Positions 1 to 47,200 of a stretch of 64,000 nt of DNA are shown here, in pieces. Both the position numbers and the translations under genes were made by a program. This stretch comes from Branchiostoma floridae (lineage: Eukaryota > Chordata > Leptocardii > Amphioxiformes > Branchiostomatidae). A model generated the notes under the pieces. The model made no database searches and was not told the origin of the DNA. It was given only the letters and a program-made list of their open reading frames with translations. The DNA lies in contig NC_049988.1 of NCBI RefSeq assembly GCF_000003815.2, positions 3,697,971 to 3,761,970 of the forward strand, read 5' to 3'. The stretch's first letter is position 1, and each line of letters begins with the position of its first letter.

Positions 1-392
1 TTGCGGAATTGTGCTTTACTGTCTCAGAACTTGTGCTACTGAAAATGCATTTGCTGTCTCTTGTGAATGTTACTTAGCTTTGGAAATAAGAAAGTTTTGA
101 CGTTATCTAGAAGACATTTGTAGATTTCTTATTTCTCAACCAAGCATAGCATGAAACTTGTCTCGACCCAACATCTTTGGCAAGTGATCTTGTGTCATCA
201 TAATGTATAATGTCATCATTTCAAGACCCACTTACCAAGTATTAAAACAACCCATCCAGGAATTCTCGAGTTATCGTGTTGACAGATACAGACACACACA
301 ACGACGACCAGAATATAACCTTCGTGGCGATGGTAATGAGAGTTCTGTGAAATTACAGTACCTCTTAGCAGCAACTCTTTTTGTTCACACAG
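1..392. other. Intronic sequence upstream of the first visible ROCO exon
   Basis: No coding exon is recognised. It ends in a splice acceptor at 391-392, directly before an ankyrin-repeat exon, so it is read as an intron of the ROCO gene whose earlier exons lie outside the window. Confidence 0.5.
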
Positions 393-20200: not shown

Positions 20201-23200
20201 ATGGAAGTCATTTGCATATTATTATTAATCAAAATATTTCATGGAGATATGAGGTCTCTGAACTCTTGTTGGGCAAGCATTTTACATGGTAGTACCTAAG
20301 ACACAAGGTACACATGTATTATGTTTCCCTCCAGAAAATCTTGCTACAACTTTCACGAATGCCTCAAATATTATCTGAGATTTAGATTCTTTTTTTTTAA
20401 AGGTCTTTTAAGTAGATCTTCTTAAATACGAGCAATCGCGATGATGTCACGGTGACGCAGTGGTAGGCAAAAAGCAGGTGTTTGGCAAACAATTAATTTA
20501 CATATCAACTGGTAAATTGATTTGCTAATTCAAATGTCAATTTTCAATCCAATCTGCTGACGTCCTGGTAGGCACCAACCGCCGAATACCCAGGATATAA
20601 ACAACAACAGCGATCGCTCGTATTCATTGCTTATTTATTTGGCGGTATTACGATTAGTGGTGGTATTGATTATGGTAATAGATGTTACATGAACAAGTCA
20701 GAATGTTATGTACATGCAGAAAACGAAACTACAAATTAATAAGATTAAATTATTAAAAAAAGCTTAGTTTGCTTATTTTTGTCAGTCTGCTTATTTTTCT
20801 TGTAACAAATTGTCTGTTACACAAAAAAATGAAAGTAGATGATAACAGGAACTAATTTAAAAGACATTAATCTTCAACCATTTAGCCGACACAAGCAACC
20901 ATTGTTACAACAGTTCATAGGGCATATTGTACAGATTTTATCAAGAGTGGTCAAGGTACATAATGTAACATTGTACAGTTTCACCTGTCTGACGCAGGAA
21001 GTAGTAGCCAGAGCACATAATCGGCTTAAGAAAACAACTTCACTGCAAACTGTGGCTTCAAGACAACTTATTAGGAGTTGACTTCAAAGGTAAGTTTTTA
21101 TATACAGAATATTCTGTTAAACCAAGGAGGTTGAAAAGAGGACCTCTTTTTAACCTCCTTGGTTAAAGGCAGTAGACAGGAAACATGAACCCTCACAATT
21201 CTGCCAGGTACCCTAAAACTGCCACATTAAAACAGTTTTATCGAGATAGAACACCTGGATATTTAACGTGTGTATATACTCAGTTAGAATCCTTTAAATT
21301 CACTTATTTCTAAATGTGGCAGTCTTACTGACCCAGCAGAATTACAATTTACATGTATGTGAGTTGATGTAACAACAGTTACATTGTATCATGTATGTCA
21401 AGACTTGTGTACCTTGTAACTTACCATACAAAGAACTTGAAACTTGAAATACTGATAGCTCCTTTTGTCCTTAGAAAAATGGCAAGAACCTATTCTTCTT
21501 CCGTGTCTACCAGGTGAAACTATTTTGTAGGCTTCCCCTTTCTCCTTAATATATAGGAAGAGCTGTTGTGCCTTGTGGCAAAGAAAAGACACAACTTCCC
21601 TCTTTGTTTTTCATTTTGAGGAACTTACTTCCTGAACATTGCATACACACTGGGCTTAAAATACTATTATAGATACAGGTAAAATTGGAGCTGCACTAGT
21701 CCATGTAAAGGGTTTTATACATAAATGTCCTGTGATGAGGGTGTATGTGGATTGTTATCAGCTGCATTGACTGTTACCACCTATATCAAGAATAAGAGAA
21801 AAAATAGCAATGATTCCTGAACAATTTTAGTATGATCCATACTTCCCAAGTTCAGAGTGGTGTAGGTAAACTTTGTCTGGTGTAGTAATTTGCAATGTTA
21901 CCTGCACCAGTGCAGGCATGGAAAAAAAATCATTTTGAGCCTGATACATGTATTATATTGATAAATAATTAATAAATAAATTGGGTGGGCCGACTACTCA
22001 CTCTTTGCAGCCAGGGGCTGAATTGCGAGGAGCTTACAATAGGCGGGGCTAACATGATCGCAAGGGTCTGGAGCGAGCTGCCATTCGGCACCACTCAGGT
22101 GACCTCAATGAGGGCCCCAATGGGGGGGTCCCGACAACGCTCTACGTAAAATTCTGATGGCCGGCTACGTATTACGCTGAATTCAGGAAGCCTCTCTACG
22201 CTCTACGCTAAATTCGAAAGCTTCCCCACACATTATGCAGAACTCATCACCGAGCGACTGAGCGTTTGTGTCAAAGATGGTACAAAAGTTGAGTTAAAAG
22301 TACTCATGGTAACCGGCGGCAGAGGCGGCGGCAGCAAATTTCTAACTCGGGGGCGCAAAAACTATATTGCTGACCGAATTTTTATCATCTTGAGCGCCTA
22401 AGGCGCGACCATCCAAGAGGGGTCCGGGGGCATGCTCCCCGGGAAAATTTGAAATCTTGATCCTCTAAAACGCCATTTCCCGCGTTTTGACGGGCAAAGT
22501 TTGCTGCCAGACCGAGGCGCTCACAACAACATGGTGAGTTAGGGAGGTCTGGAGAAAATTTTGAAATCTTGACCGTCTAAAACATTATTTCCTGCATTTG
22601 GGGGCCACATTCTGCCTGTAAATTTACTCAATTAAGTAACTGGATATGATTTTGCTGGAGTAACTGTTTTGACGTATCTTATTACCTGGATGTCTAACCT
22701 TCATGACGAATCTTTAATGCCATTTCTATCAAAATTACAGTTTGAGTTTTTGAGCGCAGATTGTGCGGGGCGTCGCAAAGGAGGTCCACGGAAATTTTGA
22801 AATCTCGACCCTCTGAAACGCAATTTCCTGCATTTTGACGGGACTAAGGGCAATTGTTAGGGCAGGTTTGATTACGCTATACGCACAATTCATCCATTAC
22901 GTTTTACGGTAAATTCCGGGGAGCTACAACGCATTACGGAGAATTAAAAGAGTCAATTACGCTCTACGCAAAATGCACCGATTACGCTCTACGTTGAATT
23001 AAGCGATCCGTCTACGCTCTACGTAAAATTAAAACGGCCGATTACGCTCTACGCAAAAGGGCATTGGGGCCCTCCTCAATACGACTGTCGCAAGTGTCTG
23101 GAGCGAGCTGCCATTCGGCGCCACTCAGGTGACCTCAATACGACAGTAATTGCCTCAGGTGCGGCCAAGGTACTGTAGGTTTTGAACCGCTCACACCGCA

Positions 23201-26200
23201 ACATCGCACATGTGGCGGGTTCTTTAACGTGCCCGGGGTATGGCTCTCCCCAGACACGGGACCTCCATTTAACGTCCTATCCGAGGGACGACTCATTTTC
23301 ACTTGAGTAAAGTGAGGAAAGTCGTGTAAAGTGCCTTTCCCAAGGGCACAAGATCGGCAGCACTGCAGGCGGATTCGATCCCGCAACCTCTCGGTCACGA
23401 GGCAAACACAATACCACTGTGCCACGCGGTCTTCACTGATGCTAGTCCACCTTTACCCATTGGGTAACCTATATCCGTTGCTTTTTAAAACACTGGTATT
23501 TAGGCACGCCAAATTGATGGGTGGTAGTTTTAACCTACAATATCCTGAAAATATTGCAAATATGAATTTGAAATTAACGCCTGTCAACGTAATATCCCAA
23601 AATATTCTGTTTTTAAAAGCAATGGATATACTAGGTTACCCAACGGATAAAGGTGAATTAGCGTTAGATGGTTACATGTAAATTTTCTATGACTTCTTGT
23701 GTCTATATGATTATACTATAAATGTGCAAAATTGACTGACTTTGACATTGTACAGTTGAATATTACATGTACATGTATGCATGGTACACAATTAGAGAGC
23801 AGACCTGGAGTTTTATTGGCCTCCGTGAATTAAGACATGGGTTTAGTCAGTGTCGTATTGTTTTATAAACACAATGTTTCACCACAAGTGGAATCCTGGA
23901 AAAGTCAGCTGATTGTGTTTGTGATATTGGAAAATAACACTCCAGGACCCGCTTCTGGAGTTTAGTGCTGTATCCCTTTAATGCCCTCAACATAGAATAA
24001 ATAACATTGGACAGGTACATTTCCTCTTGATTGAGGCCTTAAAGGAACATTAAAGGTCACTAAGTGGTCATTGAATATACAGCCCCAGTCAATGGTTTCC
24101 TATATGTAAGAGGAGAAAGCAACTGTTACTGTTAACTAGAAATTAAGGCAACATTTTCGCGAAAATGCAGCAAGTCTTTCCCGTGGCTTTTGTCAAGCCA
24201 CTCACATACAAAAGGAACCATTTTGTTATTATACCATTAGGTACCCCCTATAGTAGTACTGTGTACCTAAGCTGAAATTCATGATCAAATTCAGGTCCAG
24301 ACTCAAGTCCAGACTTTCAGGTTCAGGCCCTGGTCGTGAAATGGGTCGGGAAATCCGAGAAGCAACAAATTGAATTGGTGACACTGGATTTCCGTTAGGT
24401 TGCACAGGGCGGTTTGTCATCTGCGTTTTCATTGGATACCGGTTTGAGCAAGCATTTTGCTGGTTAACCTGTGACGTGTCCCAGAGAAAGGCATACTTTT
24501 GGCCAATCCAAAAGCTGGAAACGTGCAGAGCATGTTACAGCACCCAGTTGTTGTTTTTTTCAGAGAGAGAATGTTGACTAAAACAATAAGTCTTTTGGGG
24601 AAAGACTTAATAATAACTCAACCTTCTGAATGTTCCTGACATCAATCATGTAAATTAGTTTCATATTTACATAATCAGTCAGGAAACACTAAAATGGGCT
24701 TTGTTACGATAAGACCTGTGCCTCTTGGATAGAGAGGATGATAAACCGAGACAAATGATGCATAATCAGGACGTTATTTACATAATTAAATGAAAAAAGT
24801 TATAAATACTTCACTAAAAAAAAACTCGAACCATTTGGCGAAGGTATGGGGTCGTGGAAATCTTGTATGAAAACTTTTATCAATTCATTTATGAGATTAC
24901 ATTCTCTGAACCGTGACCAGGGCCTCCACCAACTCCCCCCATCTACAAGACACTTGTCTAGTCACGTGACCTTAGAGAGAGTGACCTCCAAGCCTCAGGT
25001 CACGTGACCCTTCAGAGCCAAATCGAAGAAACCATGATGGCTGATGCCAGATGAAAGCTTCTCATCACAAGCCTTTTTCGTTGTGAGTACCAGTTTAATC
25101 GTTTCCTATAATATTTACCAGGTTTTCTTGTTATCATAATGTATAATGCTATCTAATATATTGTGTTTGTATATATGTTTCCATAATGATTGCTTCATAG
25201 TCAAGAAAAGTTATGACATACATACATGTGTATATATTAAATGGCAACAGGTCATAAGGTGGGGTCAAGCTAGGGTTTTCTCAGGCTCTCAGCATTCCAC
25301 CCCCTCAGCGTTCTACCCTCTTAGCAAACATTACTCATTCAGGTCACATACAGTAATGTTATTTTGTTAATAATCAATAAAATGGAGGGCGGGACTCTTA
25401 CTTTTTCTCCAAGTACTAGAAGACTTAGTGCTAAATTTCATTTTGGGTGACTGTGACTTTGATGTCAAAACACCATGTACACATACATGTACAATGCCAG
25501 TCCTCCTCATTAACATCCTGTCAAGGGAGCAAGTATCTTCATCATAGACATTGTCAAGTTGCAGCTTATAGAAGAAATTCAGGAACCATTTGCACAATCC
25601 AGGAAGATTACTGGCATGCCCTAGGGCACGTCACTAAAATGTATTTTCAAAAAAAGTGTCACAATAATTCCACATAAAACACTATATTACATGACATTGT
25701 AACACTGTATTACATGACATTGTAAAACTGTATTACATGACATTGTATTTCAACTGAAACTTTGCTGAAAGGTCATGAATAGTCAATTGTTAATGAATTC
25801 CATTTCTCCATCAAAGAGGTATTACCACTTTTTAAACTGCCAGGTAATGACAGCTAGTGTAATTAAAGGAATTATTAGAAAAAATGCTGAAATAAAGATT
25901 GAGTTAAACTTTCCTGTTTGTTGCTCAGACAGGCCTGAAAAGATTTAAAGAAAAATGGACAACATTATACTGAAAGACAGCAAACAAAGCTAAAGATTAA
26001 TTGATATTCAAGAAGGAATTGGTCAACAAAACCATAATTTTGCACATTGCATTGATTGTGTGGTCAAGGTACAAAAAGTTCATAGGGTGGTCAAGGTACA
26101 AAACTATCTTGCCACCAATTCACCAGAGTCCGCAATCCAAAAATTTTAAATAACTTTACTGCAGATGACTTCAAGACATTCTGACTGAGTTTTATAATAA

Positions 26201-29200
26201 AGGTACATTTCTTATAGACACCAGCCAGGTTAATGTAAATCATCAAAATTTTGCCACATACAAAATGTTTCCTTCGACTGCCACATCAAGCCACTTTTTA
26301 AAAATGGCATTTATCAAGTTCTTTTAGTGCGTGTGATGCAAAATGTAGACTCTTGTTTTTTTAAACACTGTACTAAACTTTGTACACCCAGCAGAATTAT
26401 GAGTCATGTTCTACTTAAGGTACTAGTAAGTATTTTTAAGGAATGAGAGGATGTACTAAACTATACACTTCCTGTAACAGTTATATCAACTGTATAAAAA
26501 TTCAAACTTTTAAAGATCACAACTTCATGACATAATGTACAATCATGTGTTTTATCTGTCACTACGTGCAGTGCAGCAGTCCTAGAACCATTTAGATCTA
26601 AGGCAGTGGAACCAGGAGCTCAACTTGAAGAAAGGATACCAAAGAGGCAAGTTTGGCTAAAAAAAAGTTGTTTTTTTTTAATTCACTGGGCTCAGTGCAG
26701 CAATCGCAGCAAAAAAACTGAGTTGTGTCAATTTGACTTTCCTTTGCATGAGTTAGCTCTGTATGAATAATGAGCATTCAATCAATGTCTTATAAGTGGT
26801 CCATGAAGAAAACAGAAAGTTGAGTTATCCCAGATGTACAATATACAATAAAAAAAATAAGGTCTTTTCATCGATGATGATACTGCTAATTGTCTCATTT
26901 TTCTGGACAACTTTCAGCCTCTTTCATTGTCCTCTATTTATAGTATTAATTTTATTAATCTTTTAAGACAAACAACATGGCAAGAAAGCTACATAAACAA
27001 CACATGTGGATCTTCCTCATCATCATCCTGAAGGAGCTCCACATGCCAGAAGCAAGCTGTAGCACTAGCAGCTGTTCATCTACCACATCCTGCACCTGTG
27101 ATGACATGCAGCTCACCAATGTCCCCAAGAACTTATATTCATCCATCACTAACTTGTACTTGAGACAAAATCTAATTAGCACTTTACGTCAGTCAGACTT
27201 TTCAAGGTACAGGAGCTTAAGGATCTTATCTTTACAAAATAACCGTATCTCAACAATAGATCATCAGGCATTTCAACATCAGTCTAGCCTGATTGACTTA
27301 GCCCTTGACCACAATGAGTTGACCAGCCTAACAGCTGACATGTTTGTAGGACTTAGCAACTTGGAGCACCTTGACCTAAACAGTAATGATATCAGTAGTA
27401 TTGAGGAAGAAACTTTCACTCCGGCTCAACAACTGAAACACTTGTACTTATATGGAAATAACCTGGAATCCATCCCACAACTTGTCCTTAATCGCCTGGA
27501 TCATCTCCAGAACTTGTATGTCAATGATAGTCACATGAAGGTTATTGTCTCTAACACTTTTGCTAATCAACAGCAGCTTGTAGAGCTGCATCTTTACAAC
27601 AATGAGATCAGCTCTATCCCTCAAAGTGCTTTTGTCAACTTGCCCAAGCTCCAAGAATTGTTCCTGTACTCAAACCAAATACGTAATATTGAGACTCTTG
27701 CATTCTCAAACTTGCCACAACTCCAGGTCCTACGGCTGGATGGCAACAAGCTTGAAACAATTGACCGTGGTTCGTTTAAAGGCCTCGGTAACTTACAAGA
27801 GCTGCAACTACAGAACAATCTCTTCGTCAGCATCCAAACTGTACAATATCAGTTTCCAGTCCTCACCCATCTGTACCTGAACAACAACAGTATCACAGGT
27901 ATTCCTGACGATGCATTCTCAAGGCAACCTAAACTGGTCACTCTACATCTCCACTCAAACAGAATTTCAACTCTTTCCACAACAGCTTTCAAAGAACTGA
28001 CCCAACTGAACACACTCTATCTCTACAACAACCACCTTACCAAGCTTCCTGAACATCTATTCACTGGACTGTCTGACCTTCGTGACCTTAGGCTAGATAA
28101 CAATCTCATCTCAGACATTTTCCTCAACAGTTTCACAGGCATGTCAAATCTCTCCTTCTTTTCCTTGTCAGAGAACAAAATCACATCTTTTCCTATTGGA
28201 GCTCTGTCAAAGATTCCATCAATCTCTGCTCTTGACCTTCAAAACAACCAAATGCAAGTCCTTCCCCTGTCAGCTTATGACAAGCTGGCATCTATCTCAA
28301 CTGTGAACATTGAAAACAACCCCTGGCACTGTGACTGTAGGATGGTTCCCTTCAGGCAAGTGATGACTGGGTCACGTTCATTTGAAAACCAGATCACATG
28401 TCAGGAGCCTAGCAGTTTTATTGGAAAAAAGCTTAAAAATATCAGTCCTGAAGATCTGATCTGTGAAGACCCAACAATTGTGAGATTTGAGAGAAGTGAT
28501 GATGTCCAATTGGTACATGTACAGGTGGAGACACTCCATTTGGTGTGTGAAGTTTCAGGAATCCCCACACCAGATATCATTGTCTATCTCCCGTCAGGGC
28601 AGAATGTCACTTTTGAATCAGGTGGGAGGGTGACTATGGGGGTTGATGGTACCATCACTATAAGAGATGTTACCACAGCAGATGCTGGTCTGTACATCTG
28701 TATTGCGAAAAGTAGTGCTGGTTCCACATATGCACTTCTGTCAGTTGGCCCTTCATCCCTACCTCCTATCCAACAATCCCAGTCTGTATCTAATTCTGAA
28801 ATAGCTGGTTGGAGCCTTTTTGGTCTACTACTATTAGCTGTTATCTTATTTTGCATCAGATTTTTCTGGTGCAAGGAGGTACCTACATGTACATGTACAT
28901 GTAGGTGTCCTCCAGCTTCCCCTGACAATACTACATGTACTAACACTAGATCTGAAGTCAGGGATGACACACCTTTGAAAGAAACAACTCCGAAGGAAAT
29001 TTGTGAACAACTTCAATCCAACAATGACCCCACAATTCAATCCCTTACCAGTCAAGACCAGATAGCAGACAGCAGTGATCATTCCGCATGGCCCAGCTCT
29101 GAGTTTTCTGGACCGAGGGAAAGCTACACGTCATATGACAATCAGTAAGTTTGTAAAGTCTGACGTGCAACATGAACCTCGTCATACAATTGTATCACTT

Positions 29201-32200
29201 CCTTTACCAGTTTAGGTTGCTTTGACACAATTCAATTTCAACTGGACTCATTCTTACAAACATGCACAAACAGCATCATCGATAACATGAAAGCAGCCGA
29301 GTATCATTGTATCACCCCAGATGCTGACAAATTAAACAATCATCATTAACAAAACACATTTGGGACCATAAAACTTATTATAAGAACAATAGCCCCGACA
29401 GAGACTAGCTAGCAATGAAAATTAAAAAATCAGGCCCTGAAAATGGTCATGACTCCAGCTTTGTTGCCATTATGTGGTGAACCATCCTGAAGTATATCTG
29501 AAAGGACTGAATTGACACAAACTTTAAGGTTAAATTGCCTCTTTCTAAAAGAACTGTAATTTATCTGAGACTCTGGAGAGTGTGGAGGTTCAATCAACTG
29601 AGAGTAGGGAGAGAGGAGTTGAATGTGTTTCATCAACTTTATTCCGTGGTTTCATGAAGAGAGAAACAAGGGTTGACGTTTTATGTCTATCTATTTTTTT
29701 TACGGTAATCAAGAGTAAAAAAATAACACACAGCTGGCAGACTGTGACAGTCTGAGCCTAAAAATCAATGGAACTCAAAAGTTAGCTTTAACAAACTTTT
29801 GACACTTTGGCTACGACGTTGGGTAATACAATACCTAGTACATGTCATGAAATTTTGTACAATGTAATACAGTACAAGTCATTTAGTTGCACACCCCATT
29901 TGCCAGTGTTTTTCATGCAATTATTCGGGCGGTGCAATAATGCAAAGTTATAATTCAGCTGGACCGCAACGGTTTGGGACTTTGGGATTCAGTGCAATCA
30001 ACAGAAATGTGCAGTAATCTGTTGTGCAATTAACTGGCTTTTACTGTATAAAATATGTGTTTCAACTCTATCAAATATGATGCAATTAACAATGTGGCAT
30101 TTCAGCCATGGAGGCCATGTGAAACAGGGTCCCCAGTCTTTATACTCATGGTAATCCAATAGTTATACTCTAAATCACTTGTTTCATTGCTATTGTGCAC
30201 ATGCAATGTTGTTAAGTACTGCATTAGGATGAAGTCAGAAAAAATAAGCCATCTTTTAAAACTAATTTAAAGATAGAACAAACTTTAAGCAAGATGGAAT
30301 TATACTAAGTAGTTTTGCAATGTTTGGCCAAATGTAATTTTTGATGGATTAACAATTTCATAATAACTTCAAGATATGTAACTGATTAGAAGAGAATACT
30401 TGTTATATTGAATATGTTTGTTAGCTGATTTAATCAGTCTGATAGCATAATATAATTATAGAATATTGGACAATAACTTATGACTATGAGTAATGATCAT
30501 GGTATACCTCCTCTGTATAATTACAAAGACATGGCGACTGAAGTTGCTTGGTTGAAAGTAAACAATACACTTTAAGAAATCTAAACATCTTTTTTTTTAT
30601 AGATTTTTTTATAGATTATTGTAATCAGGTTCAACTTGAAAGAGGTAAATTCTATTTGTACTTCAAGCAATGGGCCTTAAAATGCAATTATTGCACAATT
30701 ATGTTGTCTTGAATTACAAAATTGTGAATAACGGACGTTGTTTGGAAAGAGAACTACGTCTTACTGTACTTTTTCTATAATTTGCGCTAATCTTCAAATA
30801 TTTAGTAGACTTACTAAGAATTATACTATATAGTAGTACACACTCTCCAACAATTTTCTGAACACTGATAGTTACTGTAACATTACGAACATGTGCAGGG
30901 TTTTGCAAGTATGGAACATACAGTACGAGGGGAGATCAATAAGTTCTAGGCCTCACTCAGAAATGATAAGCACAACTCAAATTTTGCGGCCAGATCTTTG
31001 TAGTATGACGTTTTTAAATATATATATCAATATCCTCCAAATTTCAAATCATTGCAATCATATAATTTCCAGGCAACGTCTTCTTGAAAGTCAGTAGGTA
31101 ATTATAAGTTCAACTTGCGAGAAAAACAAGGCGTGAACTGTGATCAGACGTGTGGGTTGAATTCCCGGGATGCTGTAAATTCTTCGAAGACTGATTGTAA
31201 AAATGTTTGATTATCATAATGATTCCCTTCGTATTTTCAAGTAGAAAGGAGTGGGTGTCTGACTTTCAGCAGAGCAAGTTGACCCGCACACCAAAGGTGG
31301 CTCAATTGTCCATGTTTTTTTCCTTGTCTTGTACCTACGTAATATAATACTGTTACTGATGGGTGTCGCCTGCAAAGTAATGATCCCAATAATTTGAATT
31401 TTGGTACAAATTCATAATTAAATTTATGCTTATTCTACTCCTCGAAATTTGAGTTGTGCTTATTATTTCTGGGTGAGGCCGAGAACTTATTGATCATTCC
31501 TCATATGCCTGGTAGAAGGTATCATTTAATGAATGGACAGACTCTAGCGAATTGTAAGAAATTTGATATTTTGTGTATAGACTCATAGTTCTGCCAGTGG
31601 GTAGACAACTTAATTGGCTGTAATGATCACAATCTGATCATCTAATCAAATAATTATACCAATTTTTGTCAAGTAAACATATCCTTTCTAAGCTCTTAGC
31701 TCGACCAAGCAAACACTGGCAAGCCATTGTTCCTGTCCTGCTTGACAACATTTTATTATCATCACACATGTACAAACAGCGTAAAGCTGACAGTATATAA
31801 TAAAAGATTGAATTCTGAAATTGAGAGTGATGTGGCAGTACAATGTGTAATTTGACATTTACATGTAGGCTAGTGAAGTAATTAGTTATTTTTTTTCTCC
31901 TCTGTACTGAAGAGCATTGCGTTACTTAGATTTAGATTTATTCTGTTACTTATATATGATAGTATGGCATTGTTCTTGTTTCCTGTGAGGATAGCTGTAT
32001 CTAGCGCAATGCAGCTCAGCATTATTGTCACAGGAAATGTGCTTAATGCACTGATTGCGGCGGCTTGACTAAAAAATCATTCCGAAAAAAATGACATTGC
32101 TAACATCAAAAAACTCTTTATATATACTAGTTACTGGGAATTATCTTTGACATCTCTCAATTAAGTTTCATTTTCATAGACGGTCTATATCATATCAAGA

Positions 32201-35200
32201 GTGTTATAAATTTTTGGAGACTTCACGGCCACACTCCAGTGGGAAAACAGCGACAGTGATGTTTATGTTGTTTTTCTATGGTCGGCATATCTACTCAACA
32301 AACATTTGAAGACCCATACATGTAATTTGTTTTGTTTTGTGAAGGTTTATTTCTTAATGTGTATGATATTGATAATTGAGTGACACTGACAATCTGCAGG
32401 GTAGCTATATATCGTGAGAACAGAACAGCTGCATATTAAGAAATTAATCTTCGAGATTGACTCAGTCAACACAAAACAATAATTTGTATACATTGTGTTT
32501 ATCATTGTATAAATTGTACAAAGTTCGTCCGGTGGTCAAGGTACATTTTGTACAGTGCACTAAAGAGTACCGTACGTAGCCAAAAAGTAAATGACAGCAT
32601 GAACATACTTTTTAACGGTTGGAAATTCCCTTTTATCCATTCCAACTGATGTCAGGTGTCAAACTGAGGAGAACTTGTTTGTAATATTATATTACGATAG
32701 CTTGATTTATGTGTTTCTGCCATTCCATCAATTTAAATGGTTTAGAACAGACTACACAAAAATTAAAGTAAACTAGAGTTCCACGAACACATCCCTTCGC
32801 CAAATAATCATGCCTTTATTCAAGACTTAATAATAAGGTCTTAGTCATGTGTTACTAAAGAGTACCTACATGTACCCCAATAGCAAACGACTGCATGAAC
32901 GTTCCCCACAAACCCACAAACGCTACCAAACATAACTTTCTTGGCGAAGATGACAATGATTATGTACACTGTTGTGATACTTTCCAGCGCAACTTTCATA
33001 GTGCTTTGTCAAAATCATGTAGTGACTAATCTACCAGACTCTGGCCTGGCCAAATAGTAAATGATGATAGGCCTGGCTTTGACCAAGTGTCTATTGACAT
33101 TGAGGTCGTCATTTGCATAATTAACATGTATTGACATTTCTCTCTTTCTCAGTTACATATGTGACAAGTTTAAAAGTCCTATCATGGAATGCAGTGGATT
33201 TATAAACTTTCCTAATTAATTATGCAAATTAGCTGTTGATTTGCATAATAAGTATTACATTATGTAAGTCATCACTTAGGCTATCTACATACCAAAAATC
33301 ATGACGATCCGTCAACACGTTCTCGAGTTATTCTCGTTCAAAGTTTGAAAGGAAATCTGTGCCTGCAGTTCCAGAAAAGCCACTAGGAGGTCCAAACTCA
33401 CAGCACTTACTCTCTGTCCTAATGGCTATCTATCACTAAAAAATTAATCTCCAAGCAGATCTTGCGGTGGTTTAAGACAGTAACATAAGCTGGGGAAGGA
33501 GTTTAGCCAGGAGAGAAGTTTTATTCCACCGCGAAGATCTGCAGCAGAACGCAACCGCTCAAAGGCTATTATCAGGCAATCAAACTGCGTTAGGAAGAAG
33601 GTGCTAATTACCCCGGGTGTGCGGGGCCAGGAATCCCGTCACGGGTCAGCTGCAAGAGTTCATTATGTTTTCTGTGACATTGGGAGCTTTTTTTTTTCTT
33701 CTTTGTTGTCAATAACTGACGTCAATAGCAAAACATCAGCACGATGCGACAGGACGCAAGTGCAGTGGGGAGGGAGACGCTGACGTCGATTTCCCCAACA
33801 TTTCACGATCAAATCCACGGCGACTGTGTTTGTCTGAGATCGTCGCCGATCGCCATTAAAATCAATTCAAATCAGCTTCGCTGCAAATGCTGATTATGTG
33901 GATATCTTTCCAAAATTTTAAGTTCGAATCTGTCTACATTTTTACACGCTGATCTCTGTCCGTCAAAAGTGACGAGCGTGGGTCCTTGAACCGAACCCAA
34001 GAGTATATGATCGGTACAGATTCTAAGTTGCAGACAAGATAAAATGACGCAGGAAGTGTTAAAACACAGCAGCTTTTATTGCGAAATATAGTCAAGTAAT
34101 GACAATAAATCGTTATTTGTGTACAACTGATAATTTCATATGTCGATACGTTGTCTTCGTGCGCTATGATGCGGTCTGCTCCAGCGATCTCGGGGGGAAG
34201 CCCCCGCTGTGAACTGGCATGGCTCGCCGCGTTTGTCCCAGATACTGGCTCGGAAAGGTTGTAAAACGATAATCCCGGCCAATATTCACGTTGGAGATAA
34301 GTGGGCACTAGGAGGAGCAGAAACACGTTTCTGAAAAGATTGCCCCTCCCAGTGCCTTTGAGCGGTTGCGTTCTGCCGCAGATCTTCGCGGTGGAATATA
34401 ACTCCTCTCCCGGCTAAACTCCTTCCCCAGCTTACTTTACTGTCTTAAACCACCGCAAGATCTGCTTGGAGATTATACTCAAAAATCACAACCACAGCAT
34501 GTTCAGAACACGAGATGTCAAAATGGAAGTTTTGCTGCAGTACCTTAGGAAGCCGCTAGGGGGCCCATTATCGAACTTGACCTTCATTTTCCTGACCCCT
34601 ACCTACCTACCAAATATCATCAGGATCCATTCAAGGCTTCTCAAGTTATGCATTCCACAAACAAACGGACGGACACACTCTGCCCACTCTGACGAAAAAT
34701 GCTAGTCGCCAACCATTTTCGAACTCGACTTTTCGCAACCGCTACTCAAATACCAAATATCATGAAAATCCATACTCAGCTTCTCGAGTTATATGCTGTT
34801 GACCTACATATAGAGACACAACAGCATGCCATAACTGAAAAGAAAACCTTCTTGGCGAAGGTAATAACAGGGTGTGAACAGCAGAAATTAATCTTCAACC
34901 ATTAGTCAACACAACCAAACATTGTACAGGTACACATACATGTACATGTACATGTATATTGGTCAAAGTCTGGCAGGTGTTCAAGGTGGTCAAGGTGCAC
35001 AATCACTGCACGTACAAAATATAAGTACAGCAGTTAGCGCCTGTCTGTGACGCAGGAAGAATTTATTTAGCCAGACTACATAATCGCCGACGTTAACAAA
35101 ACGACTTCAACACAAAAAGAACTGACTTCAAAGGTAAGTCTAGATCTCCTATTACATGTACATTAGCTCTGGATGCTTTTAGACAAACATATTTCAAAAC

Positions 35201-38200
35201 TTGATAAGGTCACCTGGATATCTGAAGTGTGCATACCATGCGGATTACAAAATACAACAGTTACTGTAACAGTTACAGCAACAAATTAGCCCTCTGTCAG
35301 ATATATCTAAACTCAAAATGAAGACATTTTTCCATCTTCATCTCAGGTTCAAAGAATATTTGAAAGAAAGTTAACATCTGCAAACAATCAAAATTTCGCC
35401 CGACCGACGGGTGTTTGCCTTTCAATTTGTGGCCGATGATCAATAAGTCGGTCTATACTTGCCCGACACCTCAAATCTTAGTATAATGCAACCTCAAAGA
35501 TCACCGGCGACTAGTCGCTGATGTTAGGAACACGTTTTGGGTTACAGTGAGCATTGGACGACTCCAAAAAATCGCTGACGATCACTAAAAATCATGCGTT
35601 GATCGAGGAAAACACAGCAGTGCATGTACATGTATATAACTGCTGACAATGTCAGTTCCAGCTAACAGACTCATCGTTCCATCGATTTCCGCGCAATGTG
35701 AAGGGGGTATGAACACACTAAGTACATTGTACATGCATCTACTGAAGGCAGCAAGACAGCAGACAAGTTACACGTAGTAGTATTACATGACTTGTACGAG
35801 ATACACATGTGCATGCATGACCTTACATACTACATGTAATATGCCACGGCTTCAAGTTGACTGTAATCTTATATGGCATGGAACTCCAGAATTCGAAATG
35901 TTGGCAGTTCTTGTCATCCTTAAATTGTCAGTAGCATGTACAATGTACTTTTCTTTCTATCATTCTGTAATACAATTCGTGTACTATTATATAATAGTCA
36001 AAACACAGATTTTCTTATTTCCAACAAGAGGAACCATTGTGACATGGAAAGACCAATTTTGACACACTTACTTTGGTTCAAAATAATTTTCTGTGGCACT
36101 GGGATTTGGTATATCCCATACAAAATGTAAAATATTTTGAATCAAAATTATCACTGATAATATACAGAACACAGTTGTAAGAGTTTCCATGGTGAAATTC
36201 AGGCAAACTGGCATGACAATTTGGTACATGTACTAGGAGGGGTGATCAATAAGTTCCCAGCCTCACCAAGAAATAATAAGGGTCACAACCTAATTTTGAG
36301 GCATATTATTTACATCATAATAGTACAAACTTAAGGGGGCACACCCCAGTTTATTTGGAGTTTCAATTGGAGGTGGCACACCCTCAAGTCTAGCAATCTC
36401 ACAAAATCCAGATTTTTTCATTGGTTAAAACACATGATTCTCCGGCAAACGAAACTGATATTGACAGAAAGAGCAAAACATAGCGAGTAATCGAGCCAAA
36501 ATTATAGAAAATTCTTACTTCAGATTTTTAAATCATCCACGGCGCGCAGCATTGCAACATCGCTTATACAGCACCTCAGAGGTCAATCTAGGTCAGGGAG
36601 CTTTACCTTCAAGGCGTAGGGATATCCGGAAATGAGGCGCAGACCAAAACACAATTTGCACCAAAAACACACCACTTCCTACGCATTTCAGCCATGTAAA
36701 TAGCATTTAATGTCATTTGAACTTGTTTCGCAGTAAATAATGAGAAATGTAAACTTAAAGCTAGACCATCAAAACCCTTTCATCACTTTTTTTGTCGCAC
36801 ACTACTGTCGGGACCCCGGTTGCGGAAGAACTGGGATGTGCACCTTTAAGCTTAAATTATGCAATATCTACCAAAATCTGTACCAGTACCTGTACCTAAA
36901 ATTTCTTTAGGTCATGTACACAGTGATTGTGGTCAATACTTTAATTTACAGATGACACCCAGTAATGTTAGGTGAGAGAGAGAAAAAATCGGACAATTGA
37001 GCTGAGTGAACTGAGGTGTGCACTGCCAGGTAAACTTGCTCACCTGTAAGTCAGATATCTAGTACTTTTTTTCTAGATGAAATATGACCTGAAATTTCAT
37101 GACATGAAAACACAACCCCAACAGCTCTGATCCTACTTTACCCTACTTCCTTTCCCATCACTTGCCTACTGATTTTCACAAATTAAAGAACTCTGTTAAG
37201 CATAATGACCACAATGCCTTGAAATTTGGTGGATAATTGATAAAAGGTAATCACACTTAATATGTAAATCTGTGCCCCAAAATTTGAGTTTGGGAGAGGC
37301 CAAAAACTTATTGAACACCAGTAATACTTGATGCGTCACCAGCTTTGGTGCTAAATGTGTAGCAAATAAAGCAGAAGCAGAGTGTACAAACAATAAACGT
37401 GATTATACAGGACAGTCACGTTTGGAGATTACCATTTCCTAAGGAGGTGTACGTTTATATTTCTACACTAAATCTTACATGCAGTGAAAACCACAGTAAC
37501 TGTAAGAGACACTTTTTCTAGATGTCATATTACATGTTGAAATATAGTCCCTTGAACTAAAATTTGATTTTAATGATGATATAGATTGAAGGAAAAAGAG
37601 TACATTATTCTGTATTTTAATATTGCACTAAGTCTTGAAAAAAGAACTAATTAAGTCTTGATACTGCACTGATACAAAGAAATACATTGTAACATTACAT
37701 GTATTATATCATATAGGGTCCATGATTCAAAGCAATTTCTAATAGGCAATACAGAATCAAATTTTCAAAACCACTTTTCAACAGCGTTGTACCTGCCCAA
37801 GGTGTAGCAGCCCTACAACTACAAGACTGGTGCCAATTCAATCAGTTGTATCAATCTTCATAAAGGAATTGTAAAAAAGGTAAGATTGGCTGAAGACATT
37901 GACTGATGTGAATAATATTTTGCTATGTGCATAGTCTAGTAAGTTCATAATGCGCCGATGAAAGGTCAAGGTTACTACTACTACCCTCGACTACTTGTGT
38001 GCAAAATATCTTCAAGTTGGCACTTGCTTTATATACAAAATGTATGCATGTTGGCCTTATAAACATTTCCATATATTAAACATACAGGTCTGTGCAGTTT
38101 GTGCCCTATAAAGCACATCATGAAGACTATTCAGTCATCCCCTTCTCCCAAAAAGTTGTTTCCGGTAGAATTTTGTGAGTGACTGTGTGTATTGTGCATG

Positions 38201-41200
38201 TTGTGGATGGACAGCATATAATGTGTTACTGGAGATTTGATGGGTCTGATGTATTGAAATTATTTGGTAAGTGAGCAGGTCTTGATGAGACCTTCGAATG
38301 ATTATAGATTTTGGGCTCTCTAGCTGCTTGTTGCGGAACTGCAGCAGAACATATGGTTTTGATATCATCAGTTCTGGACATGCTATCATCATATTGGTCA
38401 TGACTTTTGAATGGTATATAGCTCTGAGACTCTTATTAAGTAAATTGATCACAATTCAAATTCTATCCCCAGCATTTGTCTATTCGCCAAGACAGTGCAG
38501 TAGTCTACATGTTCAGCTTGTATCATTCCCGTTACTTGTTCTTTTCAGGTGACAGTACAATATGTTAAGAAAGCTGCAAGACATGCTGATTTTCCTTCTC
38601 ATCATCCTGAAGGAGCTCCACATGCCAGAAGCTTACTGCAGCTGTACATCATCTTCATACTGCTCCTGCAACAGTCAAGGACTCACCAGCATTCCTCAGA
38701 ACTTTCGCACATCCATCACTACCTTAATATTAAGAGATAATGGAATTACAGCATTAGATCAGTCAGATTTCTCAAGGTATAGGAACTTAAGAACTATAGA
38801 TTTGGGAAGGAACCAAATCTCAACAGTAGATAATCAGGCATTTTATTACCAAACCAGCCTAACCAGTTTAGACCTTCAGCAGAACCAGCTGCCCAGCCTT
38901 CAAGCTGGCATGTTTGTAGGACTTAGTAACCTGCAATCTCTTCATCTGCAAAACAATTACATCAGTAGTATTGAGGCAGGAACCTTCAGCCCAGTTCGAC
39001 GATTACAAATTCTGTACATAAATGGAAACAACCTGACATCTATTCCAAATAGTGTCTTTGTCAATCTGCCCAATCTTCAATCGTTGTACCTGTACTCAAA
39101 CTACATAGATAGCATTCAGCCTGATGCACTTTCAAATCTGCCACAACTCCAGAACCTACGACTGGATGACAACAAGCTTCACACGATCAGCCCTGGTTCG
39201 TTTAGTGGCCTAGGTAACTTAAGGCAATTGCAGCTACAAAACAACATTCTCACTGAAATTCCAACTGTACAATATCAGTTTCTAGAATTAACCCTCCTAT
39301 ATCTGAACAACAACAGTATTACGTACATTCCTGACCATGCATTCTCCAACCAACCTAAACTGTCCACCCTTCATCTTCATGAAAACAAAATTTTAACTCT
39401 CTCTGTAACAGCATTCACCCGACTGGATCAACTCAACACACTCTATCTGTATGATAATGCCCTTGAAGAGATGCCTGACTATCTATTTGCCGGGATGTCT
39501 AATCTTCGTGATCTTAGGCTGCAAAACAATGCCATCTCACAACTTTTCCTCAACACTTTCACAGGAATATCTAGTCTCTCTTTCTTCTATTTGTCTAACA
39601 ATGGTCTTCAGTCTTTCCCTGTTGCTGCTTTGTCAAAGATTCCGTCTATTTCCGGTCTTTATATCCAGAACAACCACATGCAGGTCCTTCCATTGACAGC
39701 TTATAACAAGCTGGCATCTATTTCTACTGTGAACATTGAAAACAACCCCTGGCAGTGTGACTGTAGGATGGTTCCCTTCAGGCAAAAGATGACTGGATCA
39801 CATTCATTTGAAAACCAGATCACATGTCAGGAACCAAGCAGTTTTCTTGGGCAAAAGCTTAAAAATATCAGTCCTGAAGATCTGATTTGTGAAGAACCGA
39901 GAATCGTGACATTTGAGCGGAGTGGTGATAATATATTGTTAGAGGGGGAGACACTTGATTTGCTCTGTGAAGCTTCAGGAATCCCAACACCTGACATCAC
40001 AGTCATTCTCCCATCTGGACTGAATGCAACTGCTGAGTCAGGTGGGAGGGTGACTGTGGGAGAGGATGGTGTCATTGCTGTAATGGAAATTACTCTAGCA
40101 GATGCTGGTCTGTACATATGCATTGCAGAAAGTCCCACTGGTTCAACATTTTCAGCACTGTCTGTTACAACGATTATCACATCAGCAACTTCCAATCACA
40201 CTGAATCTGCTTCTGGACCTACTTTCTCCCAAGGTGATATTGTTGGATCTGTTCTTGGGACAGCAGCTTGCACTACTATCCTTATTGGGAGTATCATTTG
40301 TGTCATCTGGTACAAAAGGAGGTATAGTCATGACTCACCAGGCTATGGTCTTGCTTCCAGAAACAGAAATGCTGCACCTCCTTGTGATTCAAATGTCTAT
40401 GATATGTGCGCTTGAGCTTAAAGAAAAGCATATTAAGTTGAAAATTTGTGTAAGGATATTCTCTATAGAATGAAAGTTGAGGAATAATGCTGATGATAAT
40501 TTTTTTTGACAGACTTAGTCTGTGAGTTCAACAATCTTTATCTTAAAATTTTGTTACATAATTAGTTGTTTTCAAGAGACCGTTCATTTTAGATGACAGA
40601 ATGCATGCAAATTAAATGTCACCACAGAAAATGGTTGTTACATACTGTATGGTATGAAATTCACAACTTAAACGCTTCATACTGAGGTCAAAGATGTTAG
40701 CTGCTAGTGCGATGCGGCTTTGCTATTACTGCTAAATGTATTTAACCAACACACTAGGTCACTCCTCTTCTCAAGACTGGAAATAAAAATGTAATTGCCA
40801 TGGCAGTAGTTGAGGTGAAAATCAATACAACTGCCAGGGAAGTTCCAGTTGATTCCCNNNNNNNNNNNNNNNNNNNNNNNNNNNNNNNNNNNNNNNNNNN
40901 NNNNNNNNNNNNNNNNNNNNNNNNNNNNNNNNNNNNNNNNNNNNNNNNNNNNNNNNNNNNNNNNNNNNNNNNNNNNNNNNNNNNNNNNNNNNNNNNNNNN
41001 NNNNNNNNNNNNNNNNNNNNNNNNNNNNNNNNNNNNNNNNNNNNNNNNNNNNNNNNNNNNNNNNNNNNNNNNNNNNNNNNNNNNNNNNNNNNNNNNNNNN
41101 NNNNNNNNNNNNNNNNNNNNNNNNNNNNNNNNNNNNNNNNNNNNNNNNNNNNNNNNNNNNNNNNNNNAATCAACTGGAACTTCCCTGTCACATCCCTGGC

Positions 41201-44200
41201 ACAATTCAATGGCCAACATACATGCAATCATGTAAACCTACAGCCAGCAGAAATGTACTATCCCTGGTACATGTAACAAACCAGCCCCCAGGAATGCAAC
41301 CCTTTCAAACATGGGGTCATGCATCTTTTTGTTTGGCATTTATTTCTTACATAAATGTCATTTCCTTACGATAAGTAGTATCTTGATATAAGTAATTTTG
41401 ACATTGACTCACACGTAAGATTTTATGGTTTACTGAGAACAAATTATTGGCTTGTTTGAAATTTATACAGACAATGCCATGTAGAATAAATTTTGCATGA
41501 AATAAATGGTCTCACCAAAACCTTAATTACTGTCAGAAATCATTTTTCTACATCTTCAAAATGACATTGTGTTGTCAGGTCAATTTGTAATGAAGAGTTC
41601 TGTTTCTTTTCTTAGAGTCCTACTTAAAAATAAAGGCACTTCTTTAAAATTTACCTGGTGAACACCTTTTGGAATAATTACACTGATGGCAGCTAAAATG
41701 AACTGGGAGTGGCCAGCTGAAGAACATTAGACTTCAACCATTGTCAATGGTCACTACGCAACAAAATAATGTTAAATATGCAATATTTACTTTGTTTATC
41801 TGGTGGGCATGGTACACAGTACTTGTTCAGACCTGTTTGTGACGCAGCAAAAATTACCTGCTGATCATGCATGATTATCCCAACAACACAACACAACTCC
41901 ACCTTAGATTGTGAAAAATTTCTGTCCAACATGAAAAGAATTAATTTCAAGTATCTCTTTATGTTATGTTATTTACAATATGTGTCAATCATGACTTTGT
42001 TTACATATTCACAAAGTTTGGTGTCAGGTGGTTGGTGGTCAAAGGTACACCTGTTTGTGACACAGAAAGAATTCAGCCAGAGCACAATACGGTTAACAAA
42101 TCCATTGCAAACTGTGACTCCAAGACAGTCTAGCATAAACTTTTAAGGTAAGTCTCTTAATGCCATTATATAGCAAATGCCACTCAGAAGCTTTTCAAGC
42201 TTACCTCATTTATGTGTTCAGTTTAATTTCCTTACTTTAAATGTAAGTCTCCTAATATATACAATAAACACTCATGACCAGGTACCCATTTACGTACTAG
42301 TAAGACAACCATACATGTAAGTAAAAAAAAAAAAACATCTAAAATATATAGATAGAACTTTATTGCTCGACATTTGTACATGGTACAAAGTATGGCAGCG
42401 ACTGTTACACAAGGTACAAAATAGGTGTAGAGAATAAGACTTAATATCCTAATTAACGTAACAAGAAGGGTATATATCACATCTGAAGTATGCATATTGT
42501 GGAGATTACAACTGAGCAACAAATAGCCTCTGTCACACACAAAGCTCAAAATGAAGACATTTTGTCCAACATCAAAGGTACAATCTGTGTGTAATTATTA
42601 TTTTTTTTCTGTACTGGTACCCACCCCTAGGTGTGACTGTTAAACTTTCTGCAGTGCAGTTTTTTAATATTCTGCCAGAGGGTGTTAACTGCAAATGGGG
42701 TGAACTCATCAACTTTGTTTTGAAGAAGTCAACTCAAAGATGATTTGTACATGTACATCTTTCAAATGAGACTGTGCTGCCAAGTGAATTGTTAATGAAG
42801 ACTTCAATTTCCTTAATGATGCTAAAATAGAGAGTTCAGTCTCCAAATTTAAAGACTACAAGGTAATGGAGTGTTAAACTTTATACAATGTACTTAGTCT
42901 GATGGAGGGTTTAAAAAAATGTCATCTTAAAAAAAATTGCAAGCATGCTTAAAAATGATAGTTTGATTGTTTCTGTCTGTTGTTTGATAAGAACTCTGAA
43001 TTGATCATGACTACCACTGCAAAAGAAATTTGAAGAAACTTTGTACCATGCACTTATTGGTAGAAGTTTGTCACCTGTGGTCATTGGTCAAGGTACACAA
43101 TGATGTAACCTCAGTAGCTTGTACTCTGTACATGTCTGTGACGCAGGAAGAATCTAGAAGCTTGGACAAATAATCCTCTCAACAAAACAAGTCCACAGCA
43201 AATTGTGACTTCAAGACAATCTGACCTGTAACCATAAAGGACTGGACTTCAAGTTTAAAGGTATTTGGTCTTTCATAAATAATGTCCTGTTGAGGCATCA
43301 GAGAGGTAACAAGCATTAACTCTTGTACATCAAGACCACCACAGCAAGAACTTACATGTACTTCATGATGAAGTGAGTTTCTAAAAATTCAAAGATTCAA
43401 TTCAAAGTTCTTCTGACTGTATAGTATTAGAAGAAAAGAAAACTTTCATTAATTTTAAATTCATTTTGTGATTATAGTAAATAACAGTAAATAAATATCC
43501 AAAGCAATTTTAGCACAAAAGTTGACAGCACTCAGAGAGTTCTTTGTGTACATATGTCCATTAAAGAGGTCTAATTCAGTTTTTATCCTGAGGCCTAGGT
43601 GTACATGTGCGCATGTTCAGATATCCGGACAACCTTGAGAAGGCCTCAGTAACGCCATTTTCCGTAAGGACACAGCATGTTTAGTCAAGTCTATTGGCTG
43701 GCCCAATTGCCCCTGGCAAGTTAGTGCTGATTTGTCAAGTGCATGTATGTCCTACATGTGCATACGGGTATAATACATTGTACAGTACTGGCCAAATACC
43801 GGGCCAGTGCGATTTTTAAATGGATGCAACTTTTTGGTCAGTTTGTGGGTAGATATCAATTCACTAGCCTGACTACATGTAAATCACACTCCCAGTGGCT
43901 TGCACCCAATTGCAACAAAAGGGCAGCCCTGAATGTTTGTCAAATGCCCACAAACTAGTTAAAGATGCTTCTCCAAGACATTAGATAAGTGTAGATCTTG
44001 TAACTTAAAGCTGGTTTGAAAGTAAATCAGAAATGATTAAAGTAAATTGTACATCTTTCAAATGACTGTGCTGCCAGGTGGATTGAATTGAGTTCCATTT
44101 CCTCCATGATGCTAAAATCTAGAGATAAGTCTTCAACTTTAAAGACTTAGTCTATAAGTTAAATGGAGCGTTTCTACGCTGTAAAAAATGTCAGTGACAC

Positions 44201-47200
44201 CTTTCAAAAACAACAAATTTCAAAGCATGCTGAAAAATGATCGTTGATTGTTTCTGTTTGTTCTGTAATAAGACATCAGAATCGACTACCACTGCAGCTG
44301 ACAAAGTTAATCTTCAACCATTTAGTCATCAAAACTTTGTACCATGCACTTATTGGTTAAAGTTTGTCAGGTGGTCATTGGTCAAGGTACACAATGACAA
44401 AAGCTCATCAGTAGCTTGTCTGTACATGTCTGTGATGCAGGAAAAATCAAGAAGCTTGGTCATGTACTGTAATCTTTCAGCAAAACAAGTCCATAGCGAA
44501 TTGTGACTTCATGACATTCTGTCCAACTTAAAGGACAAGGGTAAGTCTGATGATAATAATGCTCTCAAACTTAAATGCACCGGAGAGGCAATATATTATC
44601 TTCAAGTTGGTTGCATTCAGGTACAAAAATATACGCTAAGACCACCACATCAAGAAATGGTGTTACCGAGGCCTTCTCAATATTGTCATCTGAACATGTA
44701 TACCTACACCCCAGGATTGCTGACACCATGACAGCGTTACACCTTCTAGTGGGTGCAGACATCACTTTCAAGGCATAAGCCTTAGGGCAGATATCAAACT
44801 TAGGGCTGTCCATAGGAAAGCATGACTGTTAAACTAGAGAGGCAACATTTTCGCGAAAATGCAAAATGTTTCCCGGCGGTTTTAATTAAGGGTCACTATA
44901 GCTAGTCGACCGCTAAATTTTCATTGTAGCAACTTTTTGATTTCACAAATCCACCTCCGTCACCCCCTCCCTCTTACCGCGGCACTAATTACTACTATGA
45001 TCGTACATTCACAAGCAAGCTGTTTCTTTAAAAAAAAATGCAGAACATAAAAAGTCTGAAATGCAGGTTTTGATGTTGTAGTCGCAAGACAAATTAGTAT
45101 TGTTATATCAAATGTATATTTCTACTAAAAGGAAAAAAAAGACAACTGTCTATCTCCTTGGATTCGAACCCGGGTCGATCCAGCAACAAAAGCGTACGAA
45201 TCAAATACTCTGCCATTTCGGCCACTAGCCGCACAACTACATTCGGGATTTTTTAACAGGTATACAAACAAATTGCAACAGGTCCGTTCATAATTTCCAA
45301 GGTCCAATTTTCTGAAGATAAATGTTTTTGTGTGAAAAGTTAGTGATCTCGTTCGTTCCATAGCGGGCAACTTCTTCCTAGAGCGCCTGCTTGGTTTGCT
45401 GGAAGGCATGGCCGATTGGCTGACGCCCGAGGTTTTCGCTGCCATAATGAAAACAATGCCGAGTTCCATTTTGTGTCCTTTGCGTTGATAGGTTCAATTC
45501 TGACGTATCCCCAAGAAAGCCAGATTTTAGCCAATCAAAAAGCTGGAAACGTAGACTGCATGTTAAATCTTCCATTTTTTCTGAGTTTTGATTGGTCTGG
45601 TTGGAATATGCAAATATCTGTACAGATGCTATATGTTTCTCCTTCGGGAAACATAAATATGCGATTGGCTCAAACTCTGAGGAATGCAGCTCTATGAAAA
45701 AAAACTCACCTCTGATCCCAGTTTTCTCCTGATACCACCCAATGGCATACAACAACTAAAATCCTTCCGCACGCCACCTAAATTGCCAAACTGAGCAAAT
45801 TTTGACCACAATGGGAAAGCTTAGACCCTACCTGTTCCTTCTACATGTAACACAAAAATTCTCCAACATTACGCAAACAGGTCACACGGCCCATTGCGTG
45901 ATAGAACTCGATGCAAAAAATTGGGGAGGTATGGGCCTACACTAAAGCTATCACTAGGGGTGGGTACCGAATTAAGGTCCGGGTTCAGAGGATCAGGTCA
46001 AGGAACCTGGAACAATTGTTTGTAAATTGCCAATGGGTGAAACTCAAAACAATGGCGCATTTTGCCACAAGGAATGTGTTTGCTTGAGTATCCTATCTTC
46101 ACATAAATAATGCTAACTGCCTAGTCTGACTGTAGAAGCTTGGTAAAAATGACAGTGACAACTCTCCTCTACTTTGCTCTTGTTATTTTCTTGGAACTAA
46201 AAGCCTCAAAACATGTGAATGCCTGCTGCTGTATTCAGTCTGTATAATTCTTTTTCTATTAAATCGGTCCAACGTCCGGTCAATTGAATTTTTTCAGCGG
46301 GTTTGCATGGGGGGTCCTGACAACGCTTTACGCTAAATTCAGAAAGGTCGGCAACGTTTTACGCTAAATTCGGAAAGGTCGGCAACGCTTTATGCTAAAT
46401 TCCAGAAGGCTGGCAACACTCGGCAACATACAGAGGCAGCAGCAAATTTTGGATTTTGGGCGAAATATTGCTCATATACGGCATGACAATCCACAGGGTT
46501 CCGGGGGCTTGCTGAGCAGCTCCTTGAAATTTTGAGTCTGTCTGAAACTCTATTTCCTGCACTTTGAGGGGAAAACTTTGCTGACAGACAAAGCTAAGTT
46601 TAATGGCATATTTAGTAAGATGTCCAAGGGTTTCGGCCTCAGCAACTCTTTGTACCTTTTTGAGGATGACATGTGCACAAGTGAGGTCCAGGGCAATTTT
46701 GAAATCCCAACCCTCTGAAACACCATTTCCTGAGTTTTTCTGGGCAAAATTTTGCTGGCTATCATAAAGCTAAATAGAATGACATTTCTATATACGCCCC
46801 ACTTTATCCTACCCGAAACGTATTTCAGCATCTGGAGCGCCGGATTGGGCGAGGAGTCGCAAGGAGGCCTAGGAAAATTTTTAAATCTTTCTCCTCTAAA
46901 ATGCTGTTTCCAGCATTATCATGGGCTAATTTTGCTGGCAGACTTAGCTAAGTTCAATTACATTTCCATTATAAAAAAAAGACTTCTGAGGGCGATGCCC
47001 ACCTAGTAGACATATTTTCAACATGTCGATGGCCGAAGGCAAAAGGTATCCCAAGCGAGGTATGGTGAAGTTTTGAAATCTTGTCCATCTCAAACCCTAT
47101 TTCCTGTACATGTATTTTGAGGGAGGAATTAGCTGTAGCAGTTAGACTACGCTAAAACTTACGAAAATCAATTACGATTTACGGAACATTTTTAGGCTTG

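Follow-up and report, generated by a model that had tools for sequence, protein, structure and literature searches.

We analyzed a 64-kb window of the amphioxus Branchiostoma floridae genome (C10:3697971-3761970, hereafter the window), which carries three tandem genes for leucine-rich repeat-immunoglobulin (LRR-Ig) proteins and eight copies of a non-coding cassette. In a small subfamily of LRR-Ig receptors, this cassette probably serves as proximal promoter plus untranslated first exon, and it seems to have been duplicated both with the genes and separately from them. It behaves like a first exon with its promoter because the copies share a donor sequence, can be aligned between genes unlike the flanking DNA, and were restricted to the LRR-Ig cluster in the genome searches performed.

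Homology among the cassettes was assessed using leave-one-out profiles (nhmmer). Seven cassettes recovered the eighth in all eight runs, with E values of 4e-8 to 1e-31 (20863, 4e-24; 26029, 3e-10; 32448, 4e-8; 34886, 2e-24; 41731, 7e-9; 42007, 3e-14; 43040, 7e-28; 44306, 1e-31); the runs for 43040 and 44306 were not independent because these cassettes arose as near-copies of one another. The top match outside the cassettes had an E value of 0.0018 in one run (28950-29020) and of at least 0.59 in the other seven. All eight copies lay on the + strand in the profile search of the window, and the seven segments and the 32448 relic listed in the initial annotation were each recovered where it had placed them. 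The cassettes are about 135-250 bp in length and are as follows:

20862..21089, + strand: cassette 20863, canonical cassette of gene 1; all four boxes; AAG/GTAAGT with GT at 21090; 5.9 kb before the ATG.
26008..26202, + strand: cassette 26029, second cassette of gene 1; two GGTCAAGGTACA boxes and the last box, no TGACGCAGGAAG box; weaker donor AAG/GTACAT (26203); 774 bp before the ATG.
32440..32546, + strand: cassette 32448, putative relic between genes 1 and 2; limited to the first two boxes, without a donor.
34883..35133, + strand: cassette 34886, canonical cassette of gene 2; AAG/GTAAGT with GT at 35134; 3.4 kb before the ATG.
41725..41914, + strand: cassette 41731, putative relic after gene 2; boxes A, B, and C; no donor.
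42012..42147, + strand: cassette 42007, canonical cassette of gene 3; boxes B, C, and D, no box A; AAG/GTAAGT with GT at 42148; 7.3 kb before the ATG.
43046..43260, + strand: cassette 43040, extra cassette for gene 3; donor AAG/GTATTT (43261); within a duplicated unit of about 475 bp (42752-43226).
44307..44540, + strand: cassette 44306, extra cassette for gene 3; all boxes; strong donor AGG/GTAAGT (44541); upstream ATGs; within the second copy of the unit (44048-44524).

The order of the blocks was constant across the cassettes, as had been claimed, but some copies were missing blocks. Cassette 26029 lacked the TGACGCAGGAAG box and its first block was diverged, the TTCAACC block was missing from 42007 and 43040, recovery of 32448 was limited to the first two blocks, 41731 lacked the last block, and the last block of 34886 was diverged. 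The cassettes could be aligned between genes, whereas the DNA before the ATG and after the stop codon of the same genes could not. An intron block was common to cassettes 42007 and 34886, and the unit holding 43040 and 44306 was repeated at 1.3 kb.

The aligned right edge of four cassettes was GTAAGT (21090, 35134, 42148, and 44541), in agreement with the earlier description. It was GTATTT at 43261 in cassette 43040 and GTACAT at 26203 in cassette 26029, and no donor was present in the alignment for 32448 and 41731. The 9-mer AAGGTAAGT had four occurrences in the 64 kb, all of them on the + strand and none on the - strand; three of the four were the ends of cassettes 20863, 34886, and 42007, indicating that each gene has one perfect-donor cassette. 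The donor sequences upstream of gene 3 were those at 42148, 43261, and 44541, those upstream of gene 1 were at 21090 and 26203, and gene 2 had one. As judged from sequence only, an acceptor AG precedes the ATG by 9 nt in gene 1, 13 nt in gene 2, and 6 nt in gene 3, matching the 6-13 bases noted previously. The three genes are as follows:

26977..29148, + strand: LRR-Ig gene 1; single coding exon, 723 amino acids; acceptor AG at 26966-26967.
38562..40415, + strand: LRR-Ig gene 2; single coding exon, 617 amino acids; acceptor AG at 38547-38548.
49491..53342, + strand: LRR-Ig gene 3; single coding exon, 1283 amino acids, with a repeat-rich tail; acceptor AG at 49483-49484.

The predicted leaders, taken from box C on, contained no upstream ATG in cassettes 20863, 34886, and 42007, one in 43040, and four in 44306. 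The last 100 nt were free of ATG in four of the six donor-bearing copies, compared with 14% of 3632 background windows, and 130 nt were free of ATG in two of the six, compared with 8%; this avoidance was given little weight because much of it was reproduced by same-sequence shuffles and because the copies share ancestry. Two coding roles for the cassette were considered and rejected. Short frames do begin at the box-C ATG of 43040 and 44306, but that ATG is absent from the canonical copies, which argues against an encoded peptide. The same absence, together with a stop codon 2-6 codons before the main ATG of each gene, argues against a variable coding first exon of the UGT1, Pcdh, or sDscam type.

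In all three gene products, Pfam placed an Ig domain after an LRR array (LRR_8, Ig_3, and I-set), and hydropathy revealed a hydrophobic segment, which is probably transmembrane. The aligned ectodomains were 51-61% identical (blastp). The coding exons had synonymous divergence (NG86 dS) of 0.61-0.72 and nonsynonymous divergence (dN) of 0.23-0.28, and they therefore look maintained by selection. About 96, 35, and 610 residues follow the hydrophobic segment in genes 1, 2, and 3, respectively; the tail of gene 3 (51597-52741) is composed of coding repeats of 66 bp (16.9 copies) and 72 bp (5.4 copies).

Genome-wide searches covered 513 Mb in 431 contigs. The two-box pattern GGTCAAGGTRCA-25..50-TGAYGCAGGAA had four matches, each of which fell within the window and on the same strand, whereas the reversed control pattern had no match in the whole genome, indicating that the cassette, as far as close copies are concerned, is not a dispersed element. 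When cassette 43040 was used as a DNA query against the genome, two matches were obtained, namely itself and 44306; the reach of this query was roughly 80% identity, because cassette 20863, which is 72% identical to 43040 (blastn), was missed. CTGTCTGTGACGCAGGAAG occurred once in the genome, in cassette 34886. The initial annotation had regarded copies scattered genome-wide as the sign of an ordinary transposon, and no such scatter was found by either search.

The LRR-Ig family had at least 51 matches in the genome at E values up to 1e-60, including the three genes of the window. Four near paralogs (56-61% identity) were located on contig C4. The proposed check for copies before other LRRIG genes was negative here: no cassette was detected in the upstream DNA of these four paralogs (four stretches, 27.2 kb), the best nhmmer E value being 1.8 and the best blastn match (E 0.004) being a short one to the ACATGT-rich part of 34886. 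Among short flanks of 31 loci, four of them the window's own, a cassette was found at two window loci only, and two other matches were weak (E 0.12 and 0.44). Distant upstream DNA was covered for a minority of the 48 LRR-Ig matches outside the window. As far as searched, the cassettes are confined to the LRR-Ig cluster. Minisatellite-like arrays were observed upstream of two near paralogs on contig C4 (L034 and L035), with 28-bp steps in L034 and 15-bp steps in both; the upstream regions of these two were 75-94% alike in aligned pieces.

These observations can be explained as follows. RNA polymerase II would start inside or just upstream of a cassette, and the leader would be cut at the donor at the 3' end of the cassette and spliced across an intron of 0.8-7.3 kb to the acceptor 6-13 nt before the ATG. 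Tandem duplication of the genes would have carried the cassette along, leaving one canonical cassette per gene (20863, 34886, and 42007), and the extra cassettes would have been copied separately, one clear example being the duplicated unit of about 475 bp in which 43040 and 44306 lie. These extra cassettes may now be at differing stages of decay. By this account, gene 3 would have two extra heads, 44306 being strong and 43040 weaker, and gene 1 would have one weaker extra head (26029). Cassette 44306 is the best candidate for a second working promoter, and the only strong second candidate for any gene.

Several results weigh against this explanation. Box columns were not significantly more conserved than the other cassette columns in the 43040/44306 pair (97/122 versus 92/123, p 0.23; p 0.30-0.86 at the other eight thresholds). 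The evidence on excess conservation of boxes, for which the initial annotation had proposed a test, was mixed. Conserved columns were clustered in some sets of copies, but among ungapped columns no significant clustering was seen when the four GTAAGT copies were taken together (380/2000), nor was its maximum significant for the pair 20863/34886 (1026/2000). Divergence among cassettes 20863, 34886, 42007, and 44306 (p 0.27-0.39) was close to the divergence of the LRR-Ig coding exons at fourfold sites (0.31-0.36), implying that overall constraint on the cassette is modest. No TATAWA was present in the 300 bp before any of the six donors and matches resembling the initiator were sporadic. Finally, the cassettes were not sorted cleanly by gene, since 26029 paired with 32448 with 88-93% support. 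The longest branches of the cassette tree belonged to 32448 and 41731, the two copies without a donor.

The promoter and first-exon explanation can be extended in two opposite directions. If several cassettes per gene, chiefly those of gene 3, were used according to tissue or after challenge, the cluster would be a working system of promoter choice; we regard this extension as possible but somewhat doubtful. Gene 3 has two GTAAGT donors (42148 and 44541) and one GTATTT (43261), all of which could reach one acceptor. Moreover, 26029, which precedes gene 1, pairs with 32448, which precedes gene 2, and this suggests two cassette lineages that may be older than that gene duplication. Against this, two of the eight copies are the donorless, long-branched ones, the donors of 26029 and 43040 are weaker, upstream ATGs appear in the predicted leaders of 43040 and 44306 and in none of the canonical three (weak statistics), and the 43040/44306 pair gave a negative result for box conservation. 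The initial annotation had proposed alternative promoters with non-coding first exons and four candidates for gene 3; the likeness to a first exon with a promoter stands, whereas the idea of a choice among promoters is weakened, and for gene 3 two candidates are good (GTAAGT), one has GTATTT, and one has no donor. The opposite extension, that all but one copy per gene are dead, unselected by-products of local duplication, has close to an even chance of being correct. It agrees with the missing or weaker donors or missing boxes of 26029, 32448, 41731, and 43040, with the long branches of 32448 and 41731, and with the lack of excess box conservation in the 43040/44306 pair, but cassette 44306 weighs against it, having kept every box and its GTAAGT donor although it has diverged about as much as the genes have.

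Other explanations replace the promoter and first-exon reading altogether. Regulatory DNA that lies outside any first exon, such as enhancers, would also appear as short conserved boxes 0.8-7.3 kb from genes and free of conserved coding potential; this is unlikely, as the right edge is a GT donor in six of the eight copies and three of these are perfect AAG/GTAAGT, one per gene. Eight cassettes beside three genes could instead mark former tandem LRR-Ig genes that lost their coding exons by deletion, as the initial annotation had also considered. We disfavor this as quite improbable: tblastn of the three LRR-Ig proteins against the window found no coding remnant outside the three genes (best E 0.25), and the 1.3-kb repeat of the 43040/44306 unit now leaves no room for a coding exon of 2-4 kb. 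The presence of many similar copies within a short stretch might also recall an ordinary dispersed repeat or mobile element, but the two genome searches described above matched only the window, every copy lies on one strand, and the window contained no known RNA family (Rfam gathering scores) and no tRNA (ARAGORN). For close copies, that is, those of at least about 80% identity or with the two-box pattern, such an origin is extremely unlikely.

The LRR-Ig cluster appears to lie antisense within an intron of about 36 kb (19647-55743, - strand) of an ABCB8-like mitochondrial ABC transporter gene. Putative exon pieces of this gene lie on the - strand at 55.7-56.2 kb and 19.7-8.9 kb; the frame 19429-19680 matched mitochondrial ABCB8 (PDB 5och, E 6e-5), and searches with eight pieces from 18.9-9.0 kb and beyond gave ABC transporter family matches for six. 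The N-terminal piece ends in LLAAIV at a GTATGT donor (55743), the next exon follows CCCCAG at 19647, and both are in phase 0. The N-terminal piece had no relevant database match, and its link to the ABCB8-like gene therefore rests on frame and splice sites.

Other features were observed in the window. A 51-bp sequence (21117-21167), 90% self-complementary, lies about 27 bp past the donor of cassette 20863. Just before cassette 34886 is an inverted repeat (33445-34475) with 122-bp arms that are 95% complementary and 787 bp apart; it may be a non-autonomous mobile element, and a stray TGACGCAGGAAG lies inside it at 34045. The run of N at 40832-41190, flanked by inverted copies of one 23-base sequence, is a gap in the assembly that a foldback repeat may have caused. 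An open frame at 4389-6173 on the + strand has weak matches to COR-A and COR-B (below Pfam cut-offs) and a 'VGQPEMEEDAPA' repeat tail, which suggests a Roc-COR family gene.

Parts of this arrangement resemble known systems. The glucocorticoid receptor gene NR3C1 has alternative non-coding first exons 1A-1I with promoters in front and one acceptor at exon 2 (PMC4730588). The amphioxus locus would share this layout if its donor-bearing cassettes act as untranslated first exons; an acceptor sequence just before the start codon would be common to those of each gene. In contrast to NR3C1, whose first exons are not known to be copies of one another, the candidate first exons in amphioxus are recognizable copies that recur before three tandem genes. 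Chelicerate sDscam, an Ig-superfamily receptor, has tandemly duplicated 5' cassettes with alternative promoters, and UGT1 has tandem variable first exons (PMC5775551 and PMC1885805, respectively). The sDscam cassettes encode Ig domains and alter the protein, whereas the non-coding LRR-Ig cassettes would alter regulation only. UGT1 and the clustered protocadherins join coding first exons to shared constant exons, whereas each LRR-Ig gene has its own complete coding exon. The amphioxus LRR-Ig (LRRIG) receptor repertoire has been published, and the window genes resemble it in combining an LRR and Ig ectodomain with a transmembrane segment and in belonging to a large family; they differ from the wider family in that the four near paralogs on C4 have no cassette in the upstream DNA covered. 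LRRIG was not named in the passages of PMC5787515 that were covered. No description of such a cassette array was found in the literature among the matches listed (titles and abstract openings; subscription papers mostly outside the scope). The joining of 5'-cassette duplication to non-coding heads, if these are used, would be a new combination.

If the extra heads are unused, the locus merely documents, in an ordinary way, how DNA next to tandem genes was duplicated locally. At least one LRR-Ig gene might have a choice of start sites. We suggest, tentatively and with considerable doubt, that non-coding heads were duplicated apart from coding bodies, so that gene 3, and perhaps gene 1, gained paralogous promoter and first-exon modules acting as independent control inputs. 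If true, such module duplication would parallel, at the level of regulation, the arrays of coding cassettes known from sDscam and the protocadherins. If two or more heads are used, this locus would provide a clean natural case of an immune-type receptor that varies in its number of promoters with the protein unchanged, the neighboring paralogs having one, two, or three heads with donors. Whether duplicated promoters divide their labor or decay would then be testable at a single locus of 33 kb.

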